Part shown: piece by piece, positions 8,698 through 51,820 of the stretch
How the letters are laid out: each line of letters opens with the position of its first letter
Numbering within the stretch: position 1 is the stretch's first letter
From: Bacteroidota bacterium
Lineage (GTDB): Bacteria > Bacteroidota > Ignavibacteria > Ignavibacteriales > Ignavibacteriaceae
Direction: 5' to 3'
Length of the DNA: 64,000 nt
Assembly: GCA_021813585.1 (NCBI GenBank)
Contig: JAKAJV010000028.1
Coordinates: 1 to 64,000 of the forward strand
Made by a program: the position numbers and the translations under genes
Notes under the pieces: model-generated
What the model was told of the DNA's origin: nothing
Databases searched by the model: none
What the model saw: only the letters and a program-made list of their open reading frames with translations

Positions 8698-10578
8698 TTA
8701 TCTTCTTTTCTTTTGCTGAATCTTAGCATTCTGCTCTGCGGCTTCCATCATTCTCGTCATAAAGCCTTTTTTTCTGTTTGCGTTCTTAACGGGCTGAAGC
8801 TCCATACCGTCATGCTTATGGTTTATATAATACTGCTGGGCAATGGAAAAGACGTTAAACATAAAATAATAAAGATTTAAACCGGCCGGGAAGCTCATAA
8901 ATAAAATCGTAAGGAAAATCGGCATAACATAAACTAGAGCCTTTTGTTTCGGGTCCTGAACGGTCATCTTCTGCTGGAAGAACGTTGCGATGCCCATTAA
9001 AAGTGCCAGTCCGCTTATTTGGTCTATACCGAAGAACGGAAGCTTAAATGGAAGCTGGTATATAACGTCCGGCCTGGAAAGATCTTTAATCCAAAAAATG
9101 AACGGCTGCTGTCTGAGCTCGATGGCGACTTTTAACAATTCCCACAGCGCAATGAAGATAGGCATTTGTAGTATTAAAGGAAGGCAGCCGCCTGCAGGGT
9201 TTACTCCGTAAGTAGAATAGAGCTTCATCGTCTCTTTGTTCAATTTCTGCGGATCATCTTTATATTTTTCTTTTATTTCCTTTATCTTGGGTTGAAGAAG
9301 CTGCATCTTCTTCATCGATTGGAAGCTAGATTTAGTAAACGGATACAACGCGAATTTTATTATAAGCGAAAAGACGATTATTACAAGACCGTAATTGGGA
9401 ATAAAGGAATGGAGAAAATTAAATAACGGAAGCAGAATATAAACAGCAATCGGGCGGACAAGGAATTTGATTATTCCTCCGAAGTCAACCATCTGCTCAA
9501 AATTATGTCCGTAAGATTTCAATATATTGTAATCTGCCGGACCAATATAGATTGTAAAATCTCTCTGCTCCAGGTCGGTATTGTTAAAAGGAATAATTAA
9601 GCTGATATTATAGTATGCGCGCTCGCCGTTATTCATGTAGGCGGTTTTCGTCCCGTCTATATAGGCCCCATCAACATCGGAAGAATTTTTAGGCGCAATA
9701 ATGGCGGCAAAATATTTGTCGCGCACACCAATCCACTCCACCCTCCCGTTAAATTCTTTTTGAACCTTATCTCCGATTTTGCTGGCCTCAACAATAACAT
9801 GGTCGCCGCCGTAAAATACGCTTGAGTTTGAATAAGCAGCTTCGTCAACAGAATTCTCCTCTACAAAACGCAATCCTTTATGCCATACCAAATCGATATC
9901 GTTGTTGCTGATAATATTATTCATCCCGACAAGTTTAAGATGGTACTTCATGCTGTATTTGTCGCCGAAGAAAATATATTCTTTTTCAATATATTTGTTT
10001 GTATCTACAGCCAAACGAAACTTGATTATTAGGGAATCGCTGTCTGTTATTTTATAAAATGATTTGTCGGCATTGGTTGTAAAAATTAATTTGGCCGTGT
10101 TTATCGCTTTGCCGTCGGAGGAGACAAAAGATAAGTCGGGCCCGCCGCCGTCGTTTTCGTAATCAACAAGCTGTACATGCGTATTGTAAAAATCATTGTT
10201 CCCTTTTTCATCCGAGGCATACCAATTTTTATACTTCTTAAGAAAATATTTTTTAATATCTCCGCCTTCGGTGGAAAGCTCAAGCCTTACAAGTTTGTTG
10301 TCGATTGTAATGATTCTTTCTTTTTGCGGAGTAAAGGAAAAATACTTTCCATAATTGGATTTTATGGTATCGCCGTCTAATTGATTGGATCTTGTTTTAC
10401 TAACTGCTTCCTGCTTTACAGAAGATTTTTCGGCAGCTTTTGATAAAGAATCTTTTAAGGCCAAAGTAGAATCTGTGGGCTTGTTTTGCTGTTCAACGGG
10501 AGACGGGGAATTTAGATAAAGCCAGAGGACTAAAATAGCTCCGATTAAAATAAAAGCAATTGTTGTTTTTCTATCCAT
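8698..10578 (-). CDS. yidC: membrane protein insertase YidC
   Basis: 626-residue inner-membrane insertase acting with or without SecYEG. It has an N-terminal TM anchor (FILIGAILVLWLYL), a large periplasmic beta-sandwich domain (roughly 80-360) and the conserved five-helix core, including LKSYGHNFEQMVDFGG, YGLVIIVFSLIIK and NPAGGCLPLILQMPIFIALW. It has a basic C-terminal tail. Length and domain order fit Bacteroidota-type YidC. It is in the rpmH-rnpA-yidD-yidC cluster flanking oriC, 11 nt after yidD. Confidence 0.97.
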   Translation of the reverse strand: MDRKTTIAFILIGAILVLWLYLNSPSPVEQQNKPTDSTLALKDSLSKAAEKSSVKQEAVSKTRSNQLDGDTIKSNYGKYFSFTPQKERIITIDNKLVRLELSTEGGDIKKYFLKKYKNWYASDEKGNNDFYNTHVQLVDYENDGGGPDLSFVSSDGKAINTAKLIFTTNADKSFYKITDSDSLIIKFRLAVDTNKYIEKEYIFFGDKYSMKYHLKLVGMNNIISNNDIDLVWHKGLRFVEENSVDEAAYSNSSVFYGGDHVIVEASKIGDKVQKEFNGRVEWIGVRDKYFAAIIAPKNSSDVDGAYIDGTKTAYMNNGERAYYNISLIIPFNNTDLEQRDFTIYIGPADYNILKSYGHNFEQMVDFGGIIKFLVRPIAVYILLPLFNFLHSFIPNYGLVIIVFSLIIKFALYPFTKSSFQSMKKMQLLQPKIKEIKEKYKDDPQKLNKETMKLYSTYGVNPAGGCLPLILQMPIFIALWELLKVAIELRQQPFIFWIKDLSRPDVIYQLPFKLPFFGIDQISGLALLMGIATFFQQKMTVQDPKQKALVYVMPIFLTILFMSFPAGLNLYYFMFNVFSIAQQYYINHKHDGMELQPVKNANRKKGFMTRMMEAAEQNAKIQQKKRR

Positions 10579-10589
10579 TTATAATTCCA

Positions 10590-10799
10590 TTATTCTAAAG
10601 GATCATACCCGCCTTTATTAAAAGGATTACACCTTAAAATCCTCCACGTCGATTTTATTCCGCCTTTTATTACACCATATTTTTTAAATGCTTGCACAGC
10701 ATATTCTGAACAGGTAGGATAAAATCTACAGGACGGAGGAAATAACGGCGAAATAATTTTTTGATATCCTCTTATAAAGAAAACAAATATTCTCCACAT
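10590..10799 (-). CDS. yidD: membrane protein insertion efficiency factor YidD
   Basis: 69-residue YidD with the family signature [22 protein letters not shown]-type core (Pro-Pro-Ser-Cys then Thr-Cys-Ser) and a C-terminal KGG-x-YDP motif. YidD assists YidC-dependent insertion at the inner face of the membrane. Its ATG overlaps the rnpA stop codon by one base (TAATG), indicating translational coupling. Confidence 0.95.
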
Positions 10800-11197
10800 T
10801 ACAAAACACTTTTTAATTTAAGCATAATTTCCAAGACATCTGGCAATACATCGTTGAGCTTTATTTTCTTGTTGTTTTTTTCTGTAAAATTAACAGGGGA
10901 AAAAATAATTTTAAGTAGAATGTTTTTCCTAAGGCAGCTTTCCAGCAGAATTTCTTTATTTAACCTGAAAGACTCTCTTATTAGGCGCTTTATTCTATTT
11001 CTCCAAACCGCAATACCTTGTTTTTTGCTTACTGCTATTGCAGCTTTAACACCAGCTTCAGCTCCGCTATATTCTGCCAAATATACAGCTTTTATCAGGC
11101 GCTTCTTTGAGTAGATATAACTGCCGTTCGAAAATATTTGCTCAAAATCTTTTCTTCTTTTTATTCTTTCTTTATTAGAAAGAGTAAATCGTTTCAA
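10799..11197 (-). CDS. rnpA: ribonuclease P protein component
   Basis: 132 residues, a typical RnpA length. The conserved basic helix reads [13 protein letters not shown], and the N-terminus is [17 protein letters not shown]. It is the protein subunit that binds the catalytic RNase P RNA for tRNA 5' maturation. It lies 5 nt downstream of rpmH and overlaps yidD by one base, all on the minus strand, so the cluster is one operon. Confidence 0.96.
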
Positions 11198-11202
11198 GAT
11201 AT

Positions 11203-11349
11203 TTACTTCTCATCGCTTACAGTAAGTTTTTTTCTGCCTTTTGCTCTGCGTCTCGAAAGAACTTTTCTGCCGTTTTTAGACTTCATTCTTTCTCTAAATC
11301 CGTGCTTATTTTTCCTTTTTCTTATGCTCGGTTGAAATGTTCTTTTCAT
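11203..11349 (-). CDS. rpmH: 50S ribosomal protein L34
   Basis: 48-codon gene read directly from the minus strand: [18 protein letters not shown] at the start, then the [20 protein letters not shown] core of L34 and a short tail ending SDEK. The length is normal for L34. A Shine-Dalgarno (TAGGAG) lies about 6 nt before the ATG at 11349. It is the first gene of the rpmH-rnpA-yidD-yidC operon, and its upstream region is the origin. Confidence 0.97.
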
Positions 11350-11548
11350 ATTAACTCCTATTATCAAAAAAGATTTCAAAATTAAGTATTAAAAAACAAA
11401 CTTACAAGGAAATATTCGCGCAAATTATTTGAGCCTTAAAACTTAAAAAAAAATTTTTTTCTAATTAATTAAAAAATTAATTTGCGATGTATAAATTTAG
11501 TTCCTATTTTTTCCCCTAGATGGGTTGGCTAAAGTAATGTGAATATTA

Positions 11549-11557
11549 TGTGGATAA
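11549..11557 (-). promoter_or_regulatory. DnaA box, exact match
   Basis: TGTGGATAA on the plus strand, i.e. TTATCCACA on the minus strand, identical to the strong DnaA box consensus TTATNCACA. Confidence 0.8.
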
Positions 11558-11565
11558 GTTTTTTT

Positions 11566-11582
11566 TGTGAAAACGTTTCACA
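11566..11582. promoter_or_regulatory. operator-like palindrome in oriC
   Basis: TGTGAAAACGTTTCACA is a 7-bp inverted repeat around a central ACG. The centre and arms resemble LacI-family or catabolite-responsive operators (TGAAA-N-CGTTTCA). It lies 9 nt from the perfect DnaA box. No regulator gene adjoins it; the binding protein is unknown. Confidence 0.4.
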
Positions 11583-11624
11583 TAAAAGCGCCTCGGACTC
11601 TGTTGATTTTTTGTAGCGGGCATG

Positions 11625-11633
11625 TGTGGATTA
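11625..11633 (-). promoter_or_regulatory. DnaA box, one mismatch
   Basis: TGTGGATTA on the plus strand, one base away from TGTGNATAA. Confidence 0.5.
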
Positions 11634-11700
11634 TTCAAAAAGAAGATATCAACTCATCTAAATTCAATCACTTAGCAAAACCTTTTTAATGTTTATAAGT

Positions 11701-11709
11701 TGTGGATAT
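11701..11709 (-). promoter_or_regulatory. DnaA box, one mismatch
   Basis: TGTGGATAT on the plus strand, same orientation as the other two boxes. About 76 nt separate successive boxes (11549, 11625, 11701), roughly seven helical turns, so they would lie on the same face. Confidence 0.55.
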
Positions 11710-11776
11710 GTCGTCCGCCAAGTTGATAATCGTACGATAAAAGATCATTTTTTTTATATTTTCTTAATTTTTCTAT

Positions 11777-11785
11777 TGTTGATAA
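11777..11785 (-). promoter_or_regulatory. DnaA box, one mismatch, next to dnaA start
   Basis: TGTTGATAA at 76 nt beyond the box at 11701, ending 6 nt before the dnaA ATG. It continues the regular spacing of the array and could autoregulate dnaA. Confidence 0.45.
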
Positions 11786-11791
11786 CTTTTT

Positions 11792-13189
11792 ATGAAAGAA
11801 TTTGCCCTTATTGATAAAAAAAATCTTTTCGAACCAACTATTATCTGGAGAGAATGCTTAAGGACCATTAAAGAAAACGTCACGTTAATGACGTATAACA
11901 CCTGGTTTACTCCAATCAAACCATTGGAATTGGAGAATTCAATATTAAAAGTTCAACTGCCCAGCAGGTTTTTTTGGGAGTGGATTGACGAGCATTATAA
12001 TACTCTTATAAGCAAGACAATACAGGATGTCTTAGGGGCCGAGGCAAAATTAGCCTATGTAATTTCGGAAGAAAATGAAAACGATCAGGTTCCCAAAATA
12101 GAACCGGTAACGTTGCCAGTCATTTCAGAAGATGTAAACAAACCAAAACAGCAATTCGAATCGTATCTGAACTCTCGTTATACCTTTGAAAGTTTTATCA
12201 AGGGTGAAGGAAACCAACTGGCAAGAGCGGCAGCAAGTGCAATTAGCGATAACCCTGGCGGTACTTCTTTCAATCCTTTTTTTGTATATGGCGGAGTAGG
12301 CCTGGGAAAAACTCATCTTATTCAAGCTATCGGGAATAAAATACTTCAAAATTTTCCTGATAAAAAAGTAATCTATCTGTCTGCCGATATTTTTACTGTT
12401 GAATTCGTGGAATCGATCCAGTCAAATACTGTAAATGAATTTTCAAACTTTTACAGAAAAATGGATGTGCTTATTATTGACGATATTCAATTCCTAATAG
12501 GCAAGGAAAAAACACAGGACCACTTCTTCCACATATTTAACCAATTACATCAAGCAAGAAAACAAATTATCCTTACAAGCGATAAGCCGCCAAAAGATTT
12601 AAAAGGCCTGGACGAACGCTTAATTTCTAGGTTTCAATGGGGGCTAACCGCAGATATTCAGCCACCGGATCTTGAAACGAGAATTGCTATTTTAAAAAGA
12701 AAAACAGGCGACTATGGTATGTCCGTTTCAAACGACATTTTGGAATACATCGCAAATAATATTACCTCTAATATTAGGGAGCTTGAAGGATGCTTAATAA
12801 AGCTGCTGGCAAATGCTTCATTAAATTCTAAGGAGATTAATCTCGAACTTGCAAAGAAGACGGTTAAAGAAATTGCCACCGATAGAAAGGTTAATGTAAG
12901 TATTGAAAGCATAACTAAAATTGTATGCAATTACTTTAAAATAGATGAAAATAAAATAAGGGATAAGACGAGGAAAAAAGAGGTTGTGCTTGCCAGGCAG
13001 ATATCAATGTATTTATCAAAAGAGCTGACTAAATCGAGCCTCAAAACAATCGGCCTTCATTTTGGCGGAAGAGACCATTCCACTGTTATTCATGCTTGTT
13101 CTGCAATTGAAAATGATAAAGAATCCGATATGTTGTTAAAAGATACTTTGGAAACTTTGAAAAATAATATAGAAATAAGTTGTTCGTAA
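11792..13189 (+). CDS. dnaA: chromosomal replication initiator DnaA
   Basis: 465 residues with all four DnaA domains. These are an N-terminal oligomerisation domain (to about 90), a short linker, an AAA+ core with Walker A GGVGLGKT (167-174) and Walker B IIDDIQF, and a C-terminal HTH domain with the signature GGRDHSTVIHA. It binds DnaA boxes and melts the origin. ATG 11792 follows directly on an A/T-rich leader without an SD. It is followed by a Rho-independent terminator, so dnaA is monocistronic and not joined to dnaN here. Confidence 0.98.
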   Translation: MKEFALIDKKNLFEPTIIWRECLRTIKENVTLMTYNTWFTPIKPLELENSILKVQLPSRFFWEWIDEHYNTLISKTIQDVLGAEAKLAYVISEENENDQVPKIEPVTLPVISEDVNKPKQQFESYLNSRYTFESFIKGEGNQLARAAASAISDNPGGTSFNPFFVYGGVGLGKTHLIQAIGNKILQNFPDKKVIYLSADIFTVEFVESIQSNTVNEFSNFYRKMDVLIIDDIQFLIGKEKTQDHFFHIFNQLHQARKQIILTSDKPPKDLKGLDERLISRFQWGLTADIQPPDLETRIAILKRKTGDYGMSVSNDILEYIANNITSNIRELEGCLIKLLANASLNSKEINLELAKKTVKEIATDRKVNVSIESITKIVCNYFKIDENKIRDKTRKKEVVLARQISMYLSKELTKSSLKTIGLHFGGRDHSTVIHACSAIENDKESDMLLKDTLETLKNNIEISCS

Positions 13190-47865: not shown

Positions 47866-47907
47866 TCATCTGTTGAAAAAATTATGAATCATTTTTTATA
47901 AAAATTT

Positions 47908-47972
47908 TGGAGTGATGGAATAATGGAATGGAGGTTTTACTCCATTATTCCACAACTCCAATACTCCAATCA
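47908..47972. repeat. octamer repeat arrays in inverted arms (TGGANNNN type)
   Basis: The left arm has three tandem octamers: TGGAGTGA, TGGAATAA, TGGAATGG (47908-47931). The right arm, 47941-47972, has four on the other strand: TCCATTAT, TCCACAAC, TCCAATAC, TCCAATCA. The arms form a stem of about 21 bp with two mismatches. The last unit supplies the TGA stop of the kamA-like gene (47970-47972). It lies between convergent genes. Confidence 0.75.
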
Positions 47973-49133
47973 GTTTTCCACTTCTTCAAGAACAGGCAGC
48001 TCAACTTTGGTAAACTCCAGCTCTTTCAATTTCAGCTTTCCGTTTCTGCCGTTCTTACCATTCTTACCGTTTTTCTTTTCGGGATTGTTCCGGTCTTTAT
48101 AGTTCTTGTAAGAAAATATTTTGTTCTGGTAATTGCGCAGAATTATCTTGTCTTCATCGTGGTGGATGACGTAATTTGGCAGCAAAGGAATCTTGCCTCC
48201 TCCGCCGGGCGCATCTATAACGAAGTGAGGAATAGCCAATCCGCTTGTATGGCCGCGCAGGTTTTCAATTATATTCAACCCGGTTTCTATAGACGTGCGG
48301 AAATGGTTGGCGCCTTTTGTTTCGTCCGCCATATACATGTAATATGGCCTTACTCTTATCTTCAACAGCTTTTGCATTAATTCCTTAACAACTGCCGGAT
48401 CGTCGTTCACGCCTTTCATCAAAACCATTTGGTTGCCGACTGGGATGCCGGCGTCTGCAAGCATCTCGCATGCCTTGGAGCTTTCGGGAGTAATCTCCCA
48501 CGGATGATTAAAATGCGTATTGATATAGATCGGGTGGTACTTCTTCAACATATTGCAAAGCTGGGGCGTAATACGCTGGGGCAGAACGCACGGCATCTTG
48601 GAGCCCAGCCTGATGATTTCAATATGGGCGATAGACCTTAGCCTCTGGAGGATCTTCTCCAGCATAATATCGGTCAGCATTAAAGGATCGCCGCCGGACA
48701 TGATAACGTCGCGAATCTCGGTGTGCTCTTCCAGATATTTGAAAGCGCTTTCCAATCCCTTCATGGATATCTTCTCGTAATCGCCTACTTTTCTTTTCCT
48801 TGTGCAGAAGCGGCAGTATAGGCCGCACTGGCTGGTTACAAGGAAAAGTGCTCTATCCGGGTAACGGTGAGTAATGTTAGGAACAGGGCTCATTGCATCT
48901 TCCATCAAAGGATCTTCTTCCGCATCCCAATCCTCCAGCTCTGCTTTATCCGGTACACACTGCCGCCAAATCGGATCGTTCGGGTAACGGATTAAACTTA
49001 AGTAGTAAGGATTTATTCTTGCCTGGAAAAATTCATCAAGATCTTCGGCCACCCTCCGGTCAATCTTAAATTTTTCTACAAGCTCATCAACAGTGTGAAC
49101 GCTGTCTCTGATCATTTGCTGCCACAGTTCCAT
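47970..49133 (-). CDS. KamA-family radical SAM aminomutase (lysine 2,3-aminomutase-like)
   Basis: 387 residues. The radical SAM cluster motif is CGLYCRFCTRKRK (C-x3-C-x2-C), and the PLP-binding lysine is in the DAPGGGGKIPL segment. The core matches lysine 2,3-aminomutases, which make beta-lysine, and EpmB. After the HHDEDKIILRNYQ segment, the expected C-terminal part of clostridial-type enzymes is replaced by a lysine/asparagine/glycine repeat (NGKNGKNGRNG) and a charged end. It is the last gene of the operon with GNAT and two ATP-grasp genes. No epmA-type gene is nearby. Confidence 0.9.
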   Translation of the reverse strand: MELWQQMIRDSVHTVDELVEKFKIDRRVAEDLDEFFQARINPYYLSLIRYPNDPIWRQCVPDKAELEDWDAEEDPLMEDAMSPVPNITHRYPDRALFLVTSQCGLYCRFCTRKRKVGDYEKISMKGLESAFKYLEEHTEIRDVIMSGGDPLMLTDIMLEKILQRLRSIAHIEIIRLGSKMPCVLPQRITPQLCNMLKKYHPIYINTHFNHPWEITPESSKACEMLADAGIPVGNQMVLMKGVNDDPAVVKELMQKLLKIRVRPYYMYMADETKGANHFRTSIETGLNIIENLRGHTSGLAIPHFVIDAPGGGGKIPLLPNYVIHHDEDKIILRNYQNKIFSYKNYKDRNNPEKKNGKNGKNGRNGKLKLKELEFTKVELPVLEEVEN

Positions 49134-49156
49134 GACTTAGCCTCTGGTTGTTGTTA

Positions 49157-49627
49157 TTACTTTAAATACTTACCAAATACCATTAAATGATCGCCCACCG
49201 AGTAGAAATCATTTATTTGCGCCACAATGGTAAAGTGATTTCTTAAATAGAAATTCCTGGTTTTCGAATAACTTTCCTTTGAAGAAGTCTCGGCCAAAAA
49301 CCATCTTCCGTTATTTTCTTTTACAAAATTTTCGGCATGCTCTAGCAGGCTTTTGCCTATGCCTTTAATTTCGGCCTCCGGGTCTGCTACAATCCAGTAC
49401 AGGTCGTATACCGCATCGGTTAAAGGTCTTTTACCTGTGCAGTGGTAACCCAAAATCTTCCCGCTAACCTCGAAGACATAAACGTGGTAATCCGTCTGCA
49501 ATGCATTTCCGGCGGCAATGCTAACCAGCTCCATTGCTATATCCACTTCGCTATGGGTAAAGGCAGGAATCTTTTTCAAAATCTTTTCGATTTCGTTTAC
49601 ATCAGCTTGCTTTAGTTTGCGTATCAT
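49157..49627 (-). CDS. GNAT family N-acetyltransferase
   Basis: 156 residues, one GNAT domain. The acetyl-CoA-binding loop is likely in PEAEIKGIGKSLLEHAENFV, and ETSSKESYSKTRNFYLRNHF is the usual motif B region. In archaea and some bacteria a GNAT enzyme (AblB) acetylates beta-lysine made by a KamA homologue (AblA), so this one is a candidate partner for the neighbouring enzyme. It overlaps the upstream ATP-grasp gene by 26 bases. Confidence 0.88.
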   Translation of the reverse strand: MIRKLKQADVNEIEKILKKIPAFTHSEVDIAMELVSIAAGNALQTDYHVYVFEVSGKILGYHCTGKRPLTDAVYDLYWIVADPEAEIKGIGKSLLEHAENFVKENNGRWFLAETSSKESYSKTRNFYLRNHFTIVAQINDFYSVGDHLMVFGKYLK

Positions 49628-50663
49628 TTAGTCTTCTTGTTAATGCAAAGTCCGTAATTTTACAGATAAGATCCGTATGAGACATACCGGCGGCGGCGGC
49701 GGCCCTGGCAAATCCCGAATCGGCGGATATATCCGGGTTGGGATTTACTTCTATTACGTAAGGCTTTCCTTTGGCATCCAGCCGCATATCAACGCGGGCA
49801 TAGTCCCTGCAGTTCATCGCCTTAAAAGCCAGCAGAGCGGTCTCGTCTATCCTATCTTTTATTTTTTTACTTAGCTTGGCCGGGCAAACCGGCTTCGTGT
49901 TCTCGTAATAAACGCTTTCGGCAATCCATTTGCCTTCGTAGGTTACAATCTTCGGCAGCCCGTCGGGCAGCCCGTTAAACTTTATCTCCGAAACGGGCAG
50001 AACGGTGTCTCCCAGTATCGCCACATTCAATTCCCTGCCGTCTATATATTCTTCTATTAGAACATCCTGCCTATAAGTTTCCTGTAAGAACTTTAAATGG
50101 CTACTAAGGCTTTTAAAATCGCTAACCACGGATAACTCCGAAATGCCTATGCTGGCATCTTCATTTAGTAATTTCAGTATAACGGGGAAATTAAGGTTAA
50201 AATCTTTTTCGTTCGGCGTGTTGTTTGCCTTTACCGTCTTGGAGTATGGAGTGTTTATTCCGAATGAGCGCAGTATGTTCTTTGTTCTTTCTTTATTCAG
50301 GCAGTTGCCCAGGCACGAAGGACCGTTGCCGGTGTAGCAGTAGCCCAGCAGCTGGTACATGCCCGCAACGCAATATTCGTATGATGCCACTCCCTCAACC
50401 GATTCCACAAAGTTTATAACAGCATCGGGGGAGTAACCGTTTATTGACCTGATAAATTTTTCTATATTCCTGTCTACCGCAAGTATTTTAACTTCGGAAT
50501 ATCTTTCCTGTAAATTTTTCTTAATGATGCCGATTTCTTTTGCGAATGCGGTTTCGGAAAGGTCGTTTATTGATGCCCCCGCGGATGCGGGCTTGCCGTT
50601 GTATATGCTAAAGATACTGGTAGGAGAATTATAGCAAATTAAAATTTTTGCATTCGTCTTCAT
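49602..50663 (-). CDS. ATP-grasp ligase, D-Ala-D-Ala ligase-like (second of pair)
   Basis: 353 residues. ATP-grasp features are NCLNKERTKNILRSFGIN, FPVILKLLNEDASIGIS (phosphate-binding loop), VLIEEYIDGRELNVAILGD and RVDMRLDAKGKPYVIEVNPNP with Mg ligands. The C-terminal helix has SGFARAAAAAGMSHTDL. This is the D-Ala-D-Ala ligase-like group, which joins an acyl phosphate to an amine, but housekeeping Ddl is normally single and in a wall-synthesis cluster. It overlaps the first ATP-grasp gene by 4 bases and the GNAT gene by 26. Confidence 0.88.
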   Translation of the reverse strand: MKTNAKILICYNSPTSIFSIYNGKPASAGASINDLSETAFAKEIGIIKKNLQERYSEVKILAVDRNIEKFIRSINGYSPDAVINFVESVEGVASYEYCVAGMYQLLGYCYTGNGPSCLGNCLNKERTKNILRSFGINTPYSKTVKANNTPNEKDFNLNFPVILKLLNEDASIGISELSVVSDFKSLSSHLKFLQETYRQDVLIEEYIDGRELNVAILGDTVLPVSEIKFNGLPDGLPKIVTYEGKWIAESVYYENTKPVCPAKLSKKIKDRIDETALLAFKAMNCRDYARVDMRLDAKGKPYVIEVNPNPDISADSGFARAAAAAGMSHTDLICKITDFALTRRLNDTQTKAS

Positions 50664-51751
50664 AATAGCTTATGTCTTTTGGCAGCAACGTAAAGAACTT
50701 TGTTTATCATATCGTCGTAATTTAATCCGGCAGAGCGTGCTGCTTTCGGAAAGCAAGAGTTCTCTTCCGGGTTCGGTAAAATTCCCGGAAGCGGATTAAC
50801 TTCAATTATGTTCGGCACATTGTTTCCATCAAGTCTTATGTCTATTCTACTCCAGTCCCTGCATCTTAGTGCGCTGTAAGTCCTAAGTGCGGTGTCTTTA
50901 ATTTTTGCCTCCAGGCCTTTATCAATCCGGGCCGGGCAGGTAAAAACATCCAGCGGATTTTCTTTTGTATCTAGAATCCACTTGGCTTCGTACGAGTATA
51001 TCGGGATAAAATCGTTCGGGAAATCGTTAAAATTAATTTCTATAACAGGAAGGACTTCCGCATTGCTGCCGTTGCCGAGTATAGCAACGGTGAATTCCCG
51101 CCCCGGAAGGAATTCTTCTACAAGCGCAGCTTGATTGTATTCGGCTAATATTCTTTCAGCTTCATTAATTAGCGCGGCTTTATCTTTTACGAATGAAGAA
51201 GAAAATATTCCTTTGCTGGAGCCCTCGGAGACCGGCTTAACTATAAGCGGGTACCTCAGGTCTATATCCTTTGCGCGCTCGGGAGAGTCCACAACTACAA
51301 ACCTTGAGTTGGGGATTTTGTAGTATGATAAAATTTCTTTTGTCCGCGCTTTATCCAGGCATATAGCCAGCGTCAAAGGATCGGAGCCGGTGTAAGGTAT
51401 ATTAAGCATGTCCAGCATAGAAGGAATCTGCGCTTCGCGGCTGGCTCCATTAAATCCCTCTGCTATGTTAAAGACTATTTGAGGATTAACTTCTTTCAGC
51501 TTTTCGAACGCCGTGTAGTCGGCTTCTACCAGGGTACAGTTGTGAAAATGTTCAATCGCTCCTTTTACTGCATTAATTGTCTCCCACGTATCCCATTCGG
51601 CGTACGTGTCCATGCTTTTTTCCTGCTGGAAACTATCTAAGTTCGAATTTGGGGGTACTATTTCGGGGAAAGCTTGCCTGTCCGGCAGGCAGGACTGACT
51701 TTCAGGTTTGGCATTAAAAGTTAATGCAACGTTCAATCTAACATTGAACAA
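50660..51751 (-). CDS. ATP-grasp ligase, D-Ala-D-Ala ligase-like (first of pair)
   Basis: About 364 residues. ATP-grasp motifs include CLDKARTKEILSYYKIPN, YPLIVKPVSEGSSKGIF, ALVEEFLPGREFTVAILGN and RIDIRLDGNNVPNIIEVNPLPG. The start is uncertain: TTG 51751 and TTG 51736 (giving MNVALTFN) are possible, as is ATT 51763, placed 5 nt after AAAGGAG (51769-51775). The open frame reaches TTG 51793, which falls in the promoter. Residues CLPDRQA near the N-terminus are encoded by a palindromic repeat (51673-51694). First gene of the operon. Confidence 0.8.
   Translation of the reverse strand: MFNVRLNVALTFNAKPESQSCLPDRQAFPEIVPPNSNLDSFQQEKSMDTYAEWDTWETINAVKGAIEHFHNCTLVEADYTAFEKLKEVNPQIVFNIAEGFNGASREAQIPSMLDMLNIPYTGSDPLTLAICLDKARTKEILSYYKIPNSRFVVVDSPERAKDIDLRYPLIVKPVSEGSSKGIFSSSFVKDKAALINEAERILAEYNQAALVEEFLPGREFTVAILGNGSNAEVLPVIEINFNDFPNDFIPIYSYEAKWILDTKENPLDVFTCPARIDKGLEAKIKDTALRTYSALRCRDWSRIDIRLDGNNVPNIIEVNPLPGILPNPEENSCFPKAARSAGLNYDDMINKVLYVAAKRHKLL
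51673..51694. repeat. palindromic repeat inserted in the ATP-grasp reading frame
   Basis: GCCTG (51676-51680) and CAGGC (51686-51690) flank TCCGG, within a wider CTTGCCTGTCCGGCAGGCAGG context. It is read in frame as CLPDRQA between the conserved strand NVALTFN and the rest of the protein. It resembles the in-frame palindromic elements known from Rickettsia. Confidence 0.55.
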
Positions 51752-51790
51752 AGAGGATAAAATATTTTCTCCTTTACAAAATTTTTTTAG

Positions 51791-51820
51791 CAAATATAAT
51801 TAATAAAATTTTTAAGTCAA
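51791..51820 (-). promoter_or_regulatory. Bacteroidota-type promoter of the ATP-grasp/GNAT/KamA operon
   Basis: On the minus strand, TTG (51820-51818), 19 nt, then TATATTTG (51798-51791), an exact match to the -33/-7 consensus TTG-N17-23-TAnnTTTG. AAAGGAG follows about 15 nt downstream. The rest of the gap to recG (51821-52033) is dense in A and T tracts with no gene. Confidence 0.75.

Follow-up and report, generated by a model that had tools for sequence, protein, structure and literature searches.

What small molecule, if any, is made by the four closely packed genes at positions 47970-51820 of the DNA described here? The stretch, called the window below, comprises 64,000 nt of contig JAKAJV010000028.1 (assembly GCA_021813585.1), from a member of the Ignavibacteriaceae (Bacteroidota; class Ignavibacteria). 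All four genes are on the minus strand. They encode two ATP-grasp ligases with the fold of D-Ala-D-Ala ligase (Ddl), referred to as A1 and A2; a GNAT N-acetyltransferase; and KamA, a radical-SAM lysine 2,3-aminomutase-like protein. The answer favored here, at a probability of about 0.5 and argued largely by analogy, is that they would make an intracellular, N-acetylated small peptide containing beta-lysine, most likely a compatible solute.

The operon and its conservation

A1 (50660..51736, minus strand, 358 amino acids; PF07478, 2.7e-36) is followed by A2 (49602..50663, minus, 353 amino acids; PF07478, 8.5e-33), GNAT (49157..49627, minus, 156 amino acids; PF13508, 3.2e-9) and KamA (47970..49133, minus, 387 amino acids; TIGR00238, with a match to the solved structure 2a5h). 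The end of A1 at 50660 and the ATG start of A2 at 50663 give a 4-base overlap; the end of A2 (49602) and the start of GNAT (49627) overlap by 26 bases; and the end of GNAT (49157) is separated from the start of KamA (49133) by 23 bases. An earlier note on this DNA had given the range 47970-51820, the overlaps and the gap, together with a promoter motif discussed below, and all were reproduced by a check of open reading frames (ORFs) and motifs. Domain matches confirm its enzyme classes: Dala_Dala_lig_C in two of the proteins, GNAT in one, and LAM_C/Radical_SAM in another.

The four genes form a true module, beyond chance clustering. The phylum was sampled by searching 198 genomes with A2, KamA and GNAT, A1 homologues being taken from the A2 matches. 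Close homologues of all four genes are found in one and the same 33 of these, where a close KamA is one above 420 bits (that of G133 being in two pieces, at contig ends), a bound chosen after the tables had been seen. In 28 of the 33 module genomes the genes are linked, on one strand and with gaps of less than 400 bases; in the remaining five (G079, G087, G125, G133, and G137) the set is complete but unlinked. No other observation argues as strongly for a single pathway served by all four genes as this persistence of complete sets without linkage. The earlier note had reasoned that rare co-occurrence would tell against its proposed pathway, and these counts run the other way. Fisher values for co-occurrence and linkage ignore relatedness and serve as a guide only. 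Two partial sets were also seen: in G047 A1 and A2 lie at a contig end, and G088 has no KamA but a GNAT match of 75 bits. Module-free relatives from the same family, order or class (G156, G184, G009, G066, and others) are without close KamA and GNAT alike, and this joint absence suggests that the module was lost as a whole. Four genomes of the family whose genes are unlinked (loci L045, L046, L048, and L049) have, directly next to A1 or overlapping it by up to 80 bases, a gene for a small protein with a putative membrane segment.

A second sample, overlapping the first, consisted of 139 genomes of the class. GNAT is present in 90 of them and KamA above 530 bits in 92, and in all 90 GNAT-bearing genomes GNAT precedes KamA on one strand, at a distance of 11-382 bases (median 27.5 bases). 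Eight further genomes, all of one family, have a KamA of 391-411 bits and no GNAT. Among class relatives KamA is up to 87% identical, and RecG stands alongside the operon in many genomes. A contig scan with one protein, for the nearest A2 relatives, found three loci, of which two belong to a single metagenome-assembled genome (MAG). Outside the phylum, comparison was with plasmids and PDB sequences.

KamA and the acetyltransferase

Over 340 residues KamA can be aligned with 2a5h, a lysine 2,3-aminomutase of known structure (5.7e-123), and it exceeds the cut-off of the broader family TIGR00238 (309.7 vs. 199.2 bits). It retains the equivalents of the cluster cysteines C125, C129, and C132, of R134, and of the pyridoxal phosphate lysine K337. 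Equivalents of D293 and D330 are present in all 29 aligned operon copies (including two from one MAG) and in all four unlinked copies that could be scored; this count leaves out L071, L074, and L079, which fall at a contig end or were lost through the choice between overlapping ORFs, and the L130 copy is truncated by the end of its contig. We take D293 and D330 of 2a5h to be ligands of the lysine side-chain amine. Outside the class, position 293 is Q in 10 of the 11 other KamA copies of the phylum that were aligned, and D in the eleventh (L119). The description of this protein in the earlier note as a KamA-type aminomutase is thus borne out by a lysine-type residue signature. After a shortened LAM_C domain, its C-terminal tail is rich in lysine, glycine and asparagine (KNGKNGKNGRNGK, window 47970-48110).

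The nearest solved chain to the GNAT protein is 2r7h (1.6e-22), deposited as a putative D-alanine N-acetyltransferase and presumably from Desulfovibrio. Counted over the 29 linked GNAT copies picked up by the ORF caller, 38 positions are near-invariant; 2r7h has the same residue at 30 of them, and four of the rest fall beyond the aligned fragment. The operon GNAT has no match to the AblB profile TIGR03827. Across whole genomes the same profile is over its cut-off in none of the 33 module genomes (three weak matches reach 20-24 bits, vs. 205), vs. 3 of 14 controls. Matches to GNAT relatives on plasmids are weak, in five records.

The two ligases

The AlphaFold model of A1 (predicted local distance difference test score, pLDDT, 86) has as its best PDB match 8evy, a DdlB; for A2 (pLDDT 89) the top matches are Ddl structures, with Z of 28-33 among the 50 matches listed. 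A2 also matches the RimK profile and, weakly, the TTL profile. In a profile search neither ligase matched PF01820, the N-terminal domain that Ddl has in addition to PF07478. The genome that carries the window (G000) encodes one separate canonical Ddl with PF01820, on another contig.

In a ligase tree of 120 rows (quick method, LG+G4; 3 of 123 rows were dropped beforehand, two short ones of 252 and 277 amino acids and one distant rhizobial protein), 16 Ddl rows, 14 from the phylum and two enterobacterial, split off with a Shimodaira-Hasegawa-like approximate likelihood ratio test (SH-aLRT) value of 100, with A1, A2, a third ligase called A3, and the rest on the opposite side. The A1 rows (30 operon and five unlinked) form one clade; the A2 rows group with A3, which is nested among them. 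An origin of A1 and A2 as ordinary Ddl paralogues is ruled out by this tree and by the separate canonical Ddl; placement of both ligases inside the ordinary Ddl clade had been named in the earlier note as an outcome that would undo its proposal, and both fall outside it.

Aligned residues were tabulated in the numbering of E. coli DdlB (proteins of more than 500 amino acids being trimmed to their last 420 residues); the roles given to them here, as ATP/Mg positions or subsites, are those assumed for Ddl. K97, K144, E187, R255, D257, E270, and N272 are retained in 30/30 A1 and 30/30 A2 rows, so that A1 and A2 share with Ddl the fold, PF07478 and what we take to be the ATP/Mg positions. Unlike Ddl, both have E in place of H63 and W in place of Y216, again in all 30 rows of each. 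A2 is changed further (G149D, S150A, S274N, G276D, and L282G, in 30/30 rows), while A1 retains G149, S150, and S281. Because of these changed active-site residues, A1 and A2 should differ in specificity both from Ddl and from one another, and the additional acidic residues of A2 would suit a substrate that carries more amines.

A3, the third Ddl-fold ligase, lies on the A2 branch and is unlinked to the operon (L035, G000:C102:24500-44400, 9901-12473). It is divergent from a gene for a C39-peptidase-like protein and is followed by an isochorismatase-like gene; of the 18 A3 loci viewed, 15 have a labelled C39-like neighbor, including that of G156, which retains A3 although it has no module. Proteins of 656 and 640 amino acids with a region related to A1 and A2 occur at L052 (G005) and L053 (G162), and form a branch of their own in the tree.

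What the operon might make

The substrates, partner amino acids, order of steps and product that we infer would be as follows: KamA would convert L-lysine to beta-lysine; A1 and A2 would use ATP to activate a carboxylate as an acyl phosphate and then form an amide bond, one or two bonds in total, with at least one of the two ligases taking beta-lysine as donor or acceptor; and GNAT would use acetyl-CoA to acetylate an amine, masking its charge. That the resulting peptide would serve as a solute is proposed because of an analogy with N-acetylglutaminylglutamine amide (NAGGN). The enzyme Ngg holds both a GNAT and an ATP-grasp domain. It acetylates a glutamine and couples this to another, on the way to the osmoprotectant NAGGN (PMC8070244, in extract); with AsnO, it forms a system like the present one in that acetylation and peptide bond formation give a capped dipeptide from a small operon (same extract). 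The operon described here differs in having a separate GNAT gene and two Ddl-fold ligase genes, and in a KamA that would supply a beta-amino acid. Neither an AsnO-type asparagine synthase nor Ngg is among its four genes, to which the search for AsnO was confined.

In methanogens, AblA and AblB make N-epsilon-acetyl-beta-lysine as a solute, from an operon that, as here, combines a KamA-family aminomutase with an acetyltransferase (PMC1224877, in extract); an N-epsilon-acetyl-beta-lysine pathway has also been proposed for Pelobacter (PMC3543383, in extract). The differences are that the GNAT here belongs to another family, with its 156 amino acids and lack of a TIGR03827 match, and that two ligases are added.

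The kinds of enzyme involved are already known, as is the idea that ATP-grasp ligases work together with amino-acid-modifying enzymes and GNAT proteins. Iyer et al., in 2009, are said to have surveyed predicted ATP-grasp peptide-ligase operons containing GNAT and amino-acid-modifying enzymes. No description of these four genes together was found in the literature searched, which did not take in that survey, and an earlier published prediction of the gene set may exist.

KamA and Ddl-like ligases are also paired in other settings. On a Thioflavicoccus plasmid KamA adjoins a Ddl-like ligase, in the company of SbnA, a diaminobutyrate transaminase and an ornithine-cyclodeaminase-like gene, and this KamA retains both lysine-site aspartates; because of this gene set, the pairing can be said to occur elsewhere with diamino-acid synthesis. 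On another plasmid a Ddl-like ligase is found with a major facilitator superfamily (MFS) transporter and transposases. Within the phylum, at least 10 of the 198 genomes (G003, G008, G030, G050, G058, G085, G135, G155, G183, and G195), among the matches listed, have a Ddl-like match 300 bases or less from a KamA that is not of the class type. Pairs of this kind outside the class were considered as the same system and rejected: their ligases form a separate clade (SH-aLRT 100), and their KamA, in the copies aligned, has Q at the lysine site. Examples of a ligase from outside the Ddl clade beside such a KamA are L107 (G155:C1, 6799-11798) and L136 (G050:C4).

A number of observations weigh against an acetylated beta-lysyl peptide solute. 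The KamA score against TIGR03820, the AblA equivalog family, is 470.5 bits, below the cut-off of 525.4, and both aspartates are present in KamA copies outside the module (L100 and L119). E15 is still E in 26/30 A1 and 29/30 A2 rows, which speaks for a first subsite that would be partly Ddl-like and not wholly remade. The position of A3, on the A2 branch and beside a C39-like gene with no KamA, indicates that these ligases are not tied solely to beta-lysine. In two genomes of the class a close KamA lacks its GNAT; that of G288 begins at contig base 6, and the case of G281 is unexplained. KamA and a Ddl-like ligase adjoin in just two of the six plasmid regions viewed, and in one, from Mesorhizobium, the KamA paired with the ligase is without the lysine-site aspartates. 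No osmotic-stress gene is linked to the operon within the window, and the sole TrkH neighbor seen, in G155 as the second gene after KamA, belongs to the other lineage, with the other KamA type.

The most credible of the alternatives, although well behind a solute, has the same chemistry yielding a low-abundance signalling, metal-binding or antibiotic beta-lysine peptide. The plasmid Ddl-like ligases, found beside KamA and diamino-acid genes, beside KamA, or with an MFS transporter and transposases, resemble natural-product islands and lend this some appeal. The operon, however, is held in place beside RecG in many genomes of one class, with the high KamA identity noted above, and the unit in the window has no export or resistance gene, the neighbors in relatives being only partly annotated. 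It is rather improbable that KamA and GNAT act alone to give N-acetyl-beta-lysine as in methanogens, leaving A1 and A2 to a separate job: GNAT does directly precede KamA, and an aminomutase with an acetyltransferase is the outline of the abl pathway (PMC1224877, in extract), but the two ligases accompany KamA and GNAT even in genomes where none of the genes are linked, and a plain AblB pathway is disfavored by the failure of AblB to exceed its cut-off in any of the 33 module genomes. PF09043, sought as a sign of lysine fermentation, has no match in the 33 module genomes and none in the controls, so its absence carries no information.

A role in the cell wall, with A1 and A2 supplying an altered dipeptide to peptidoglycan, was among the possibilities raised in the earlier note, and it is suggested by the Ddl fold and family of both ligases. 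We consider it improbable: the tree and the separate canonical Ddl described above oppose it, and the annotated neighbors in the window (RecG, a thioredoxin-like protein and NAD kinase) include no wall gene and so lend it no support. Slighter still is the chance that the operon serves beta-lysylation of a protein, such as the tip lysine of elongation factor P (EF-P), with an ATP-grasp enzyme replacing EpmA. The EF-P of G000 does have a K-type tip (KPGKGGAF), A2 has the RimK and TTL matches mentioned, and no EpmA-sized synthetase was found in G000, the one genome searched for it, whose three PF00152 proteins have frames of 590, 509, and 434 amino acids, all longer. The nearest folds of A1 and A2, though, are Ddl ligases, and EF-P tips, read in 30 genomes and G000, are not associated with the module: the residue is K in five and N in six of 11 module genomes, and K in five, R in one and N in 14 of 20 module-free ones (in the genome with R, one of two EF-P copies was read). 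Because the tip is N in 6 of 11 module genomes, the operon cannot serve EF-P lysine modification in general, and that function is rejected. The argument of the earlier note against EF-P, from the lack of a nearby EpmA-type gene, is strengthened by these tips and by the lack of an EpmA-sized class II synthetase in G000. Even between closely related genomes of the class the tip changes from K to N or back, with the forms PGKGGAF, PGNLRAF, and PGNWRAF (L096, L154-L183).

Operon boundaries and surroundings

A promoter-like motif, TTG-N19-TATATTTG, lies ahead of A1 on the minus strand at 51791..51820. This exact motif occurs once in the window, vs. 0.09 expected, although 8 of 100 shuffles also gave one; the looser form TTG-N19-TANNTTTG occurs twice, vs. 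1.33 expected, and is no rarer than chance. The exact motif, with the same spacing, precedes A1 in 7 of 30 homologous loci from four families, where 0.00-0.04 per region would be expected from simple shuffles; the A1 start is uncertain at some of these loci, and L033 has only 17 upstream bases. The mechanical ORF start of A1 (51793) is the TTG that ends the motif; by alignment with the N-termini of relatives, the start is the TTG at 51736, which gives the 358 amino acids stated above.

Directly after KamA, at 47901..47967 on the minus strand, is an intrinsic terminator-like hairpin followed by a U run (minimum free energy -31.2 kcal/mol, z -5.8). It was missed by the consensus terminator scan, in which the loop limit was 8, and consensus scans for promoters and terminators were at chance level. 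With the promoter motif at one end and the hairpin at the other, the unit has the look of a bounded operon. On its upstream side is RecG; on the downstream side, a thioredoxin-like gene and NAD kinase are convergent with it. The four-gene unit includes no transporter, peptidase, carrier, regulator, export, or resistance gene.

Implications

A unit kept across the class, and complete even when scattered, implies a core small molecule for which no name was found. Because the pathway needs few enzymes, from tractable families, reconstitution could reveal the product. More tentatively than the peptide itself, we suggest that N-acetylated beta-lysyl peptides might be an undescribed class of solute or protectant, and part of core metabolism in most of the sampled class genomes and in the relatives with unlinked genes. 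If true, this would connect two known kinds of solute, the beta-lysine one of methanogens and the capped dipeptides of proteobacteria.

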